Of a stretch of DNA of 64,000 bases, positions 61,562 through 64,000 are shown piece by piece (position 1 is the stretch's first letter; each line of letters begins with the position of its first letter). Below the pieces are notes generated by a model. The model saw only the letters and a list, made by a program, of their open reading frames with translations, made no database searches and had not been told where the DNA came from. A program made the position numbers and the translations under genes. Source of the stretch: Ricordea florida (Eukaryota; Cnidaria; Anthozoa; Corallimorpharia; Ricordeidae); assembly GCA_949710005.1 (NCBI GenBank), contig OX453276.1:27963613-28027612 (forward strand). The letters run 5' to 3'.

Positions 61562-61867
61562 TTATATAACATACATGGATGGAATTTTACTAAACGTATA
61601 GAATAACGATTTAAACTTACGCCTCGACAAGAAAAATGGAAGATTCGGCGGTTCGAAAGCTTGATAAGCGATGCAAAACTTGCATCTGCAATAACTATGC
61701 GTGGAACTAATATATACTTGATAATCTCTACAATGAATGCATTGATGCGTGCAAACTTCTGGCATTTCACATAGGGTACATTGAAAAGGACATTGACAAA
61801 GTTCTCGTAAAAAAGGTACCATGTACCCTTCATCATCATCATCACAGTCATCATCATCATCATTGTC
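61562..61867 (-). CDS. Acceptor-led cassette 1: acidic plus Cys-rich
   Basis: Begins directly after a T-rich AG acceptor (AG at 61,868-61,869). The first about 14 residues are nearly all Asp. A Cys/His-rich segment follows: LCQCPFQCTLC, VCTHQCIHC, then YCRCKFC. The tail is basic and hydrophobic. The Cys spacing suggests a metal-binding fold of no family I can name. It is paralogous in plan to cassette 3. An internal ATG at codon 16 could also serve as a start. Confidence 0.5.
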   Translation of the reverse strand, partial: DNDDDDDCDDDDEGYMVPFLRELCQCPFQCTLCEMPEVCTHQCIHCRDYQVYISSTHSYCRCKFCIAYQAFEPPNLPFFLSRRKFKSLFYTFSKIPSMYVI

Positions 61868-61894
61868 CTAAAAAAAAGTAATATAATATTCATA

Positions 61895-62026
61895 CTAGGA
61901 TTGGGGTGGTTTGATTTTTATGATTAGTTCCCATTGTTCTAGTTCTGGAAGGGACATTTCCACTTCCCAACTTTCTTCGCTGATATGTGTATAATCATCA
62001 TCATCATCATCATCATCACTAATGTC
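61895..62026 (-). CDS. Acceptor-led cassette 2: Asp-rich
   Basis: Follows a TTTTTTTTAG acceptor in phase. DIS, then eight Asp from a GAT repeat, then a Glu/Trp-containing 32-residue tail ending at a TAG. It has no ATG near its start. It may be a shortened relative of cassettes 1 and 3 that lost the Cys part. Confidence 0.42.
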   Translation of the reverse strand, partial: DISDDDDDDDDYTHISEESWEVEMSLPELEQWELIIKIKPPQS

Positions 62027-62047
62027 CTAAAAAAAAGAGTAAAAAAT

Positions 62048-62299
62048 TTACTCTAGGGGTATAGAACCTATGTACCAGAACACATCAATACATTCTTTGC
62101 AATCGCAATGACCTAATTCATCGTACATGTGGTAACAATAATCACAATCACAACCACAATGGTAATGGTGATCAACATCATTCAAATCGTCACAAAGATC
62201 GCAATTACACATAGAATCTACCTCGAAAGACTCGAAAGAGAATTCGGAGGACAATGAAGAGACTTCGTCAAAGACACTGTCTCCATCACTATCATCATC
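62048..62299 (-). CDS. Acceptor-led cassette 3: acidic plus Cys/His-rich
   Basis: 83 codons after a TTTTTTTCAG acceptor. Acidic Ser/Asp start (DDDSDGDSVFDEVSSLSSEF), then CNCDLC, HHYHCGCDCDYC and GHCDCKEC, and a hydrophobic end. The first in-frame ATG is at codon 29, so in-phase splicing is the better explanation for the conserved acidic start. Confidence 0.5.
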   Translation of the reverse strand, partial: DDDSDGDSVFDEVSSLSSEFSFESFEVDSMCNCDLCDDLNDVDHHYHCGCDCDYCYHMYDELGHCDCKECIDVFWYIGSIPLE

Positions 62300-62325
62300 C
62301 TGAAAAAAATATATAGTGATTTTTT

Positions 62326-62496
62326 TTAATCATCCTCGTCTGGTAAAGGAATTAAAAATTGAAACGTGTGTAACGAACGATACAACATCAAGTCACCGTA
62401 AAAGAATTCAATCTCTATAAAATCAGATTCAGTGACATTGGGATTGTGGTATCTGTCCATAAGAAAACTTTTACAGTCATCAATTGACCGAAGTAT
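62326..62496 (-). CDS. Acceptor-led cassette 4: SIDDC family
   Basis: 56 codons after CTACAG. Opens ILRSIDDCKSFLMDRYHNPN and ends IPLPDEDD-stop. The opening S-I-D/E-x-C block, the DRY/NPN segment and the hydrophobic-acidic end recur in cassettes 5-8. No ATG at the start. Confidence 0.5.
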   Translation of the reverse strand: MLRSIDDCKSFLMDRYHNPNVTESDFIEIEFFYGDLMLYRSLHTFQFLIPLPDEDD

Positions 62497-62692
62497 CTGT
62501 AGAAAAAAAACGAAATCTCAAATCATCATCCTCGTCTGATAAAGGAATTATGTCTTGAAACATTCTTAACAAACGATACGCCATCAAGCTACTGTAAATG
62601 CGTTCAATCTCTAGAAGATCGTATTCGGTGACATTGGGATTGTGGTATCTATCCACAAGAAAACTTCTACAGTCATCAATTGACTGGAGCAT
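62480..62692 (-). CDS. Acceptor-led cassette 5: SIDDC family
   Basis: 70 codons after TCTGCAG. Opens MLQSIDDCRSFLVDRYHNPN, the one member whose first codon is ATG. Its end overruns the acceptor of cassette 4 by 17 nt, consistent with alternative acceptors on one transcript. Confidence 0.5.
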   Translation of the reverse strand: MLQSIDDCRSFLVDRYHNPNVTEYDLLEIERIYSSLMAYRLLRMFQDIIPLSDEDDDLRFRFFSTDTSVN

Positions 62693-62711
62693 CTGCAGAA
62701 AAAACGAAATC

Positions 62712-62879
62712 TCAAATCACGGGTCTAGAAGAAAAGTGGAAGTAGTCTATGTCAAATATTCTAAACGAACGGTACAAACTCAAGTCACTGTGAATGCGAT
62801 TAATATTTGCTACATTAGAATTAGGTGTGTTGTATCTATCCGAAAGAAAGCTTGTACAATCATCGATTGATTGGGTTAT
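62712..62879 (-). CDS. Acceptor-led cassette 6: SIDDC family
   Basis: 55 codons after a TTTTTTACAG acceptor. Opens ITQSIDDCTSFLSDRYNTPN. The C-terminus differs from cassettes 4 and 5 (Phe/His-rich). Confidence 0.48.
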   Translation of the reverse strand: MTQSIDDCTSFLSDRYNTPNSNVANINRIHSDLSLYRSFRIFDIDYFHFSSRPVI

Positions 62880-62905
62880 CTGTAAAAAATGAAAAAACGA
62901 ATCCG

Positions 62906-63049
62906 TCAAAGAAGCATGTTTTGAAACGTTCTTATCGGAGACATTAGATCATCGTAGGTATTATTTACTCTATCAGATACATTTAAAAAATATTCTAAAT
63001 CGTATCTAGCCGAAAGAAAGCTTGCACAATCTTCAATTGATTGGATTAT
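62906..63049 (-). CDS. Acceptor-led cassette 7: SIEDC family
   Basis: 47 codons after a TTTTACAG acceptor. Opens IIQSIEDCASFLSARY and ends TFQNMLL-stop. No ATG near the start. The shortest member of the family. Confidence 0.46.
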   Translation of the reverse strand: MIQSIEDCASFLSARYDLEYFLNVSDRVNNTYDDLMSPIRTFQNMLL

Positions 63050-63228
63050 CTGTAAAACGAAGAAAACGAATCTGTCAAAGATGGAAGAAGCATGTTTAGA
63101 AACGTTCGTTTCGCAGTTAAAAGATCATCGTAGATGTCTAGAATGTCGAATAGAATATATTCCTCTACGTTAGGTTCGTTGAATCTGTCTACACACAAAC
63201 TTGCACATGCTTCAATTGATTGGATTAT
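63046..63228 (-). CDS. Acceptor-led cassette 8: SIEAC family
   Basis: 60 codons after a TTTTTTTACAG acceptor. Opens IIQSIEACASLCVDRFNEPN. It reads into the acceptor of cassette 7 before stopping. Confidence 0.48.
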   Translation of the reverse strand: MIQSIEACASLCVDRFNEPNVEEYILFDILDIYDDLLTAKRTFLNMLLPSLTDSFSSFYR

Positions 63229-63289
63229 CTGTAAAAAAATGAGAAAACGAAAAAAACGAATTTTCAACTGCACGCACTCTTGCATTTGA
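63212..63289 (-). CDS. Acceptor-led cassette 9: short NAR frame
   Basis: 25 codons after TTTATTTACAG. Opens SNARVRAVENS. It is related to cassette 10 by the CAAATGCAAGAG core. Very short, so it may be only an alternative acceptor. Confidence 0.28.
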   Translation of the reverse strand, partial: SNARVRAVENSFFSFSHFFTDNPIN

Positions 63290-63419
63290 CTGTAAATAAA
63301 TAAAATGTATATATTATAATAATAATAATAATAATAAGAATAATAATAAAAATAATAAGAATATATGTCTCTTCATTGTTGAGTCTTTCTGTTCGCGCTC
63401 TTGCATTTGCTTGAAATGA
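63264..63419 (-). CDS. Acceptor-led cassette 10: NAR plus poly-Ile membrane segment
   Basis: 51 codons after TTTCTTTACAG. Opens SFQANARARTERLNNEE. It then runs through a TTA/ATT microsatellite that is read as an almost pure Ile/Leu/Phe stretch of about 25 residues, long enough to cross a membrane, and ends KCKSACS. Confidence 0.33.
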   Translation of the reverse strand, partial: SFQANARARTERLNNEETYILIIFIIILIIIIIIIIYTFYLFTVKCKSACS

Positions 63420-63438
63420 CTGTAAAGAAAATAAAAAA

Positions 63439-63552
63439 CTAATAGTATAGAAAGCGAATAAAGTCTGGACCGTAGAGAGACGATGCCATAATTAATATCT
63501 TCTTTTTTCTTGCATTGGCAACTATGATTTCTTCGTTTATACGAATAATAGT
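63439..63552 (-). CDS. Acceptor-led cassette 11
   Basis: 37 codons after a TTTTTTTTCATAG acceptor. Basic middle (ANARKKKILIM), again with an Asn-Ala-Arg motif shared with cassettes 9 and 10. No ATG near the start. Confidence 0.33.
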   Translation of the reverse strand, partial: TIIRINEEIIVANARKKKILIMASSLYGPDFIRFLYY

Positions 63553-63601
63553 CTATGAAAAAAAAGACAACGATGATTAATGATGATGATGATGATGATG
63601 A

Positions 63602-63877
63602 CTATTCATCAATAAACATTAATAGACGGGGATCGATTTCCATAAGGCATAACAAATTCTTGGCCATTTGACAAAGAGAACATACATCGTTTGGTAATAT
63701 GTGTACTTGATCGCAATGTTCGTCAATACTGTCGATGGCTTGATCGTAATTTCCAACGTCACGATTAACGATAACAGACGTGAATATACTGATTAAATTT
63801 GTAGCTGTTGCGATTACATTATGTCTGAAGCGGGGTGATCTCATGTTTAAGCTAAATCGTTCAACAGCTTGTATTAG
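63602..63877 (-). CDS. Acceptor-led cassette 12: LIQAVE
   Basis: 91 codons after a TTTATTTTCAG acceptor. Opens LIQAVERFSLNM, a distant match to IIQSIEDC. A middle with HCDQVHILPNDVCSLCQM suggests possible metal binding. An internal ATG at codon 12 is available. The stop is followed by a TCA/TGA trinucleotide run (about 63,582-63,600). Confidence 0.45.
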   Translation of the reverse strand, partial: LIQAVERFSLNMRSPRFRHNVIATATNLISIFTSVIVNRDVGNYDQAIDSIDEHCDQVHILPNDVCSLCQMAKNLLCLMEIDPRLLMFIDE

Positions 63878-63946
63878 CTGAAAATAAAAAAAGAGAGAAA
63901 AATATTATTATGCAATGTGGAAATCGATCATCGTTTACGTAGTTAA

Positions 63947-64000
63947 CTAGAAGAACTTAACAATTTGTTTAACGAGAGATCGACGATACGCTTTGACAGA
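63947..64000 (-). CDS. Partial cassette 13 running off the window
   Basis: The last 17 codons and stop of a frame that enters from beyond 64,000 (basic: AYRRSLVKQIVKFF). It shows that the array continues to the right. Confidence 0.3.
   Translation of the reverse strand, partial: SVKAYRRSLVKQIVKFF

Follow-up and report, generated by a model that had tools for sequence, protein, structure and literature searches.

A RING leader exon and an array of predicted alternative terminal exons in a Polinton/Maverick provirus of Ricordea florida

We analysed a 64,000-nucleotide stretch of DNA from Ricordea florida (contig OX453276.1, positions 27,963,613 to 28,027,612; the window), whose last 3.8 kb are the left end of a Polinton/Maverick provirus of 23,538 bp. 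One gene of this provirus appears to be built as a leader exon encoding a RING finger, followed by 18 short end exons in the leader's phase (cassettes c01 to c18). We think it probable, at roughly three in four, that the leader is spliced to one of these at a time, giving predicted ubiquitin ligases with alternative, target-picking C-termini. What the DNA itself gives is the provirus, a leader with an ATG, the RING residues and a donor, a phase common to leader and cassettes, and purifying selection on the pooled exons. An initial annotation of the window had described about thirteen minus-strand cassettes and predicted a leader exon beyond its right edge. All thirteen cassettes are present, from c18 (61562-61867) to c06 (63947-64174), and the leader was found where it was expected: coding, with a phase-0 GTAAGT, and in phase with all 18 cassettes. 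The features of the gene are listed below in the direction of reading. All terminal exons are predicted, and coordinates beyond 64000 are continued along the contig; subtracting 63787 gives the coordinate on sequence piece L009.

near L009:2301-2307, minus strand: TATA-like box of the leader
65396-65983 (L009:1609-2196), minus strand, beyond the window: coding part of the leader exon with the RING finger; 588 nt, 196 codons, ATG at L009:2196
65390-65395, minus strand: shared donor GTAAGT
65113-65301, minus strand, beyond the window: c01
64870-65076, minus strand, beyond the window: c02
64508-64732, minus strand, beyond the window: c03
64384-64482, minus strand, beyond the window: c04
64187-64360, minus strand, beyond the window: c05
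63947-64174 (in the window: 63947-64000), minus strand: c06, terminal exon, 75 amino acids (aa)
63602-63877, minus strand: c07, terminal exon, 91 aa; predicted five-helix module, mean predicted local distance difference test score (pLDDT) 79.7
63439-63552, minus strand: c08, terminal exon, 37 aa
63264-63419, minus strand: c09, weak candidate exon, 51 aa, low complexity
63212-63289, minus strand: c10, weak candidate exon, 25 aa, varies between copies
63046-63228, minus strand: c11, terminal exon, 60 aa, SIDDC group
62906-63049, minus strand: c12, terminal exon, 47 aa, SIDDC group, present in close copies only
62712-62879, minus strand: c13, terminal exon, 55 aa, SIDDC group
62480-62692, minus strand: c14, terminal exon, 70 aa, SIDDC group
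62326-62496, minus strand: c15, terminal exon, 56 aa, SIDDC group
62048-62299, minus strand: c16, terminal exon, 83 aa, acidic and Cys-rich
61895-62026, minus strand: c17, terminal exon, 43 aa, acidic
61562-61867, minus strand, phase 0: c18, terminal exon, 101 aa, acidic and Cys-rich

The leader begins with a Ser/Thr-rich and acidic stretch, continues with the RING finger and closes with a short tail ending in ATCCGACTT immediately before GTAAGT; the junction, CTT/GTAAGT, is in phase 0. The sequence holds the zinc ligands of a RING-type ubiquitin ligase as well as the residues that we take to be its E2 contacts, and all seven aligned leaders share the eight RING cysteines, the Trp and the Arg that follows the last of these cysteines. 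Among solved structures the RING best matches RNF125 (E 8e-6), followed by RNF141, UHRF1 and TRIM37; the RING of an equine herpesvirus matches weakly (E 0.085). We infer that the leader product is a ubiquitin ligase. Among related copies the donor is GTAAGT at 16 of the 18 loci whose leader match reaches the junction (window copy included), the exceptions being L027, which has TTAAGT, and L031, which is frame-broken. Only one entry in the protein database matches over the whole leader: P0001 (94% to the leader, 222 aa, from a 16.5-kb contig), which is the unspliced read-through form, so gene finders are likely to miss the array. An additional relative found with the leader alignment, P0122 (130 aa), has a partly eroded RING and ends in EFQRRIR as the leader does.

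From the leader donor to position 61562, we counted 18 acceptor-led frames of 25-101 codons on the minus strand. Each begins at an AG and is closed by a stop of its own, and because leader and cassettes are all in phase 0, every cassette continues the leader's frame. Two of them, c09 and c10, are weak, being of low complexity and differing in length among copies. Of the 22 strong acceptors in this stretch, 13 are followed at offset 0 by a frame of at least 35 codons, and offsets 1 and 2 give 2 and 3 such frames; across 300 dinucleotide shuffles of the same stretch, the offset-0 mean was 0.59 and the maximum 4. Frames that lie open straight after an AG in a common phase, as the initial annotation described them, are thus more frequent than chance would give. 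Its remark that nearly all frames lack an ATG at the start also holds: the first Met is codon 1 in only 2 of the 18 (c04, c14) and codon 5 or 6 in three, and comes later or not at all in 13. Could the cassettes instead be independent small genes, with acceptor-like tracts that are mere A+T-rich spacers? Two of them do open with an ATG right after the AG, and the frames are short. However, 13 of the 18 have no Met among their first ten codons, and long acceptor-led frames are mostly in the leader's phase, both in the window and in the six divergent copies described below; we regard independent genes as highly improbable.

A single donor ahead of many terminal exons is also the layout of mod(mdg4) in Drosophila, where a constant N-terminal part is joined to one of many terminal exons and over 30 isoforms arise by trans-splicing (PMC12692577). 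The leader and end-exon RNAs could likewise come from separate promoters in the provirus, and TATA-like strings, judged by eye, do occur inside the array, for example in c02. Yet no exon is farther than about 3.8 kb downstream of the donor and all share the strand of the leader, an arrangement for which cis-splicing would be sufficient, and trans-splicing seems quite improbable to us. In the 6.1-kb left piece, GTRAGT occurs on the array strand only at the leader donor (65395) and at 61620 inside c18, and two weaker donor-like strings, GTGAGG and GTAAGG, both lie in the c02-c03 spacer; the earlier statement that no donor recurs was nearly right. The GTAAGT at 61620 is off phase 0 and could lengthen c18 RNAs through an additional splice.

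Divergent copies of the gene provide an independent test. The leader protein gave 121 matches in the genome, at about 100 places once neighbouring pieces were merged by eye, and at 39 of these, the window's included, the whole leader is free of stops (counted by eye). We hand-picked six copies for low identity (L036-L041) and took two that are among the most divergent (L042, L043); by tblastn, leader identity to the window copy is 40-61% in the six and, over the RING part only, 42-49% in the two. Given that L036-L038 are mutually close, and L039-L041 likewise, the six represent two extra lineages. All eight have a phase-0 GT donor at the same codon, the leader ending in DALLxDxEFQRRIRL/GTAAGA (DPEF or DSEF) in the six and in DPEFKRRVNA/GTACGT in the other two. 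Without any use of cassette homology, frames of 35 codons or more were seen at offset 0 behind 66 of the 90 strong acceptors in the six, compared with 14 and 11 at the other offsets; when each locus was shuffled 100 times, the means lay between 0.36 and 0.81 and the maximum was 5. By eye, these loci hold 10 to about 18 exons each. Homologues (E <1e-3) of c02 are found in all six, of c01 and c16 in five each and of c07 in three; L037 is without a c01 homologue, yet its first exon has a similar start. In L042, the next exon is c02-like and in phase 0 (by eye), with at least three further phase-0 frames of at least 50 codons behind strong acceptors. The array is kept in seven of the eight copies.

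Closer copies allowed us to ask how the cassettes change. Across the 538-Mb genome, array DNA gave at least 99 matches (40 of 306 candidates scored), which, merged by eye, fall at the window's place and 39 others; 24 of these 39 copies were compared. Each copy segment was assigned to the cassette that it resembles most, at 70% DNA identity or more, and the remainder were dropped. The copies are related to each other, so the counts are not independent, and the segments themselves were picked up through their homology to open frames of the window copy. The acceptor AG is conserved in 105 of 114 pairs from the more diverged copies and in 169 of 179 pairs from close copies, and the frame is open over 90% of its length in 93 and 169 of them, respectively. 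Substitutions at codon positions 1, 2 and 3 number 646, 486 and 849 over the diverged pairs (chi-square p 2e-22, which overstates because the pairs are related) and 155, 104 and 197 over the close pairs. Position 3 changes most in 10 of 17 cassettes (in c14 and c17 barely or on few changes), c12 having no qualifying diverged pair. Indels in multiples of three make up 33 of 53 in diverged and 27 of 43 in close exons; for the spacers, the figures are 5 of 37 and 0 of 38, respectively. The codon-position bias, the frame-keeping indels and the conserved AGs indicate that the cassettes are coding exons. The ratio of nonsynonymous to synonymous change (dN/dS) against the window copy, calculated for 17 of the 24 copies, is 0.35 and 0.37 when pooled over the two deepest groups, and in the group at about 78% all 15 cassettes with data are below 1 (0.04-0.86). 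A first version of the codon-position and indel test (757/577/908; threes in 61 of 318 exon and 9 of 71 spacer indels) was replaced, its loose alignments having mixed paralogues and introduced spurious gaps.

The gene lies in a complete provirus and belongs to the virus, not to the host around it. The ends of the provirus are as follows:

60190-60195: target site duplication CTGGAG; second copy at L035:446-451
60196-60435: left terminal inverted repeat, starting AGTAGT; 240 bp, 100% identical to the right end at L035:206-445 (ACTACT)

The element thus has terminal inverted repeats, AGTAGT/ACTACT ends and a 6-bp target duplication, and at the right junction (L035:440-451) ACTACT is followed by CTGGAG and then by the rest of the interrupted host repeat unit. 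Its PolB (PF03175, E 9e-47) is a 1220-aa open frame at L009:3054-6713, and it carries an integrase with a chromodomain (PF00665, rve, E 4e-16; PF00385, E 6e-9) and an adenovirus-type cysteine protease (PF00770, E 2.7e-5, above the cut-off). An ATPase-like frame in the window copy has generic P-loop matches only, below the Pfam cut-off; the packaging ATPase family PF04665 is carried by 3 of the 120 listed among 971 database relatives. A 465-aa frame at L010:3782-5176, without a Pfam match, is a capsid candidate picked by eye. PolB, an rve integrase with chromodomain, an adenovirus-type protease, terminal inverted repeats and a 6-bp target duplication, and perhaps the ATPase-like frame, are likewise features of Polintons/Mavericks and adintoviruses. 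Vertebrate Mavericks have the same (AGT)2//(ACT)2 ends, the commonest end motif among them (PMC8097293). That its ends are identical, its target duplication perfect and its core frames open suggests that the element inserted recently. The capsid candidate, the leader, PolB, the integrase and the seven-leader alignment were each compared with viral contigs and turned up no relatives there, and the integrase has none among phage records.

The initial annotation had thought of a DNA virus, correctly as it turns out, and of tandem terminal exons in a host gene as the alternative. Under the latter, the virus-like genes would be a chance neighbour, and the array does adjoin a host tandem cluster. 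But the inverted repeat and the PolB of one element with a target duplication enclose both leader and array, these two occur together in copies with enough flank, and the leader matches in about 100 places; we give a host gene next to no credence. Because each cassette has its own stop, the host-gene, independent-gene and exon-chain readings were rejected.

Several results weigh against one leader choosing among 18 target-picking ends. The Pfam match of the RING (PF13639, E 3.7e-4) lies under the curated cut-off, at 21.1 vs 27.3 bits. The codon-position signal is uneven, with a tie between positions 1 and 3 in c02, and c04, c05, c06, c09, c10 and c11 are not led by position 3. For the three shallower groups, pooled dN/dS is 0.68, 0.74 and 0.68; among the 17 cassettes with a value in the group at about 85%, four (c02, c08, c09, c10) are above 1. 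As we interpret it, the overall dN/dS pattern fits purifying selection while the element was active and neutral decay after insertion. Of 21 copies (window copy included), just 7 have the AG of c18 immediately before the start of the alignment, likely because the number of Asp codons at that start varies. In L043, one clear exon only (c02-like, phase 0, by eye) was seen in 2.3 kb downstream. Ten pieces, nine of them cassettes, were tried against Pfam, and none reached a family cut-off. The predicted modules of c07 and c14 matched no solved structure, nor c07 any viral structure (best E >1 in each case); the c07 model was built from the single sequence (pLDDT 79.7) and the c14 model from an alignment with c11-c13, c15 and c07 (pLDDT 71.5). 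With none of the tried modules resembling a known family or fold, we can only guess that they bind targets.

With the same splicing, the ends could instead serve the localisation, dimerisation or stability of one RING protein. In favour of this, the cassettes differ in kind (helical, acidic and Cys-rich, very short), and none of those tried resembles a known binding domain. Moreover, in all eight of L036-L043, translation past the donor would yield a hydrophobic tail that resembles a membrane anchor (by eye), so that the unspliced form there looks like a localisation switch; the window copy's own tail is short and unlike a membrane anchor. On the other hand, 10 to about 18 ends per array in L036-L041 and the window, together with tandem duplication in the SIDDC group, look more like a repertoire than like address tags, and we consider this alternative rather unlikely.

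We return to the preferred reading, in which the end chooses the target; here splicing, target choice by the ends and control of exon choice by a hairpin are all things that we infer from sequence. One transcript would start from the TATA-like box, and its single strong donor would be joined to one acceptor at a time, the sequence downstream of the chosen exon becoming 3' untranslated RNA. The RNA would end at the AATAAA near 61486 and, for c01-c02, perhaps at the AATAAA near 64851. The RING of the constant part is predicted to bind an E2, and the C-terminal end would decide what is ubiquitinated, which is the least certain step. Unspliced RNA may encode one more form, which the hydrophobic read-through tail of L036-L043 suggests is membrane-bound.

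The hairpin contains a conserved motif:

64789-64817 (L009:1002-1030), minus strand: 29-nt G-rich motif GTGAGGTTAGGGGTGGCTGTAAGGGGAGG, between c02 and c03

Of 31 loci scanned, 27 have the c02-c03 interval, as judged by c02 or c03 matches or by an array with a c02 homologue, and 26 of these carry the motif with at most two differences. L032 has the interval and no motif within four differences, and the interval is absent from L021, L025, L026 and L029. Each of L036-L041 has two copies of the motif and the window's family one, and the proteins flanking it are far less alike than the motif itself; in L042 and L043, its exact 11-nt core was not found in the 2.6-2.7 kb scanned. The motif lies inside a long hairpin in the window's element, and L036-L041 do not keep the AATAAA that stands at the base of its stem. 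Rfam gave no match to the hairpin at the gathering score, the best being a microRNA-precursor model (E 0.0008, 27.5 vs 84 bits). Some G-rich elements are bound by hnRNP H and modulate the choice of poly(A) and splice sites, and it is tempting to guess that the hairpin could switch between c01-c02 and the remaining exons.

The array looks as if it changes by exon birth and loss within a fixed frame. Cassettes c11-c15 are tandem relatives, and the comparison among them that the initial annotation had suggested gave pairwise dN/dS of 0.30-0.55 in nine of ten pairs and 0.98 in the most similar pair, c14-c15. Its SIDDC group stands as a set of paralogues, and two members of its NAR group, c09 and c10, are weak candidates. 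In L015-L020, L023 and L024, c14 and c15 match the same single segment, so one of the two is missing there; a close c12 is absent from L022-L024, and L027-L029 have longer intervals around c14. A wider picture would be a virus-borne library of ligases, with one RING exon, up to about 18 target-reading modules, exon duplication and loss, spread over about 100 places, steering by the hairpin and a membrane-anchored unspliced default. We hold this picture tentatively, at somewhat short of even odds.

Other genes lie between the left inverted repeat and the array, the last two as its downstream neighbours:

60473-60910, plus strand: 145-aa open reading frame behind a TATA-like box TATATAAGGG, read inward from the left inverted repeat; no Pfam match
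60978-61190, minus strand: small Arg-rich protein, second of a related pair
61243-61443, minus strand: small Arg-rich protein, first of the related pair

The two Arg-rich genes (60978-61443) stand in tandem, each behind its own A+T-rich, TATA-like stretch, and a similar PFIGSW stretch marks a possible relative in L042. In the rest of the window, 1-60189, units of about 24.4 kb follow one another in tandem, the first being longer; they are mostly more than 99% alike, and the provirus lies in the last. These host units carry NACHT (PF05729/PF24883), ankyrin and DUF4559/HEPN-like frames and resemble an immune-receptor cluster. A PiggyBac-type transposase remnant (PF13843) is found at 11545-12000 and at about 59.8-60.2 kb, where the provirus interrupts it, and adjoining short-period tandem and inverted repeats occupy 6304-8313 of the first unit. 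To the right of the insertion, an open frame at L035:1340-5599 runs off the piece; its 1420 aa show motifs that by eye resemble those of polymerases, and it is perhaps another virus-like or plasmid-like element.

A shared donor followed by many stop-ended acceptor exons in one phase, as in lola and mod(mdg4), is thus present in a viral element. In lola, shared BTB exons are followed by many alternative 3' exons, and the variable ends of both genes are mostly zinc fingers. Unlike the gene described here, lola and mod(mdg4) are host genes whose constant domain is BTB and not RING. The host gene PML (TRIM19) is also among the nearest layouts; it has fewer isoforms and is not known to have a stop-ended, single-phase array of terminal exons. 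Among DNA viruses, the well-known layouts of the adenovirus early units (E3, E4) and polyomavirus T antigens likewise yield several proteins per transcription unit by alternative splicing; to our knowledge, they have neither a RING leader exon nor a single-phase terminal-exon array. ICP0-type viral RING ligases are, as far as we know, one fixed protein without swappable ends, and the virus ubiquitin ligases known to us are one protein each, with a fixed target set. Like the product predicted here, herpesvirus ICP0 is a viral RING protein, one that redirects host ubiquitination (PMC7303953), and adenovirus E4orf6 with E1B55K forms an E3 ubiquitin ligase complex (PMC9499273). Adintovirus virion proteins acquire alternative C-termini by frameshifting, which is a different thing (PMC11071296).

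Among the papers listed in searches of the open-licence literature, none describes alternative terminal exons behind a RING exon for Polintons, Mavericks or adintoviruses. What appears new is a Polinton accessory gene built as a library of terminal exons on a RING exon, its function being the one we propose. The vertebrate Maverick survey reports that no introns were seen in genes of intact elements (PMC8097293), in agreement with Kapitonov and Jurka 2006. The array would run counter to that statement, which was made for vertebrate Mavericks, the window element differing from those surveyed in its spliced-looking accessory gene with 18 alternative ends. The array is also a natural catalogue of RING-plus-end combinations. 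If our reading is true, the RING exon is fixed and the ends are stored as exons, so that a compact genome could reach many host proteins, and the target set could change by duplication or loss of one short exon.

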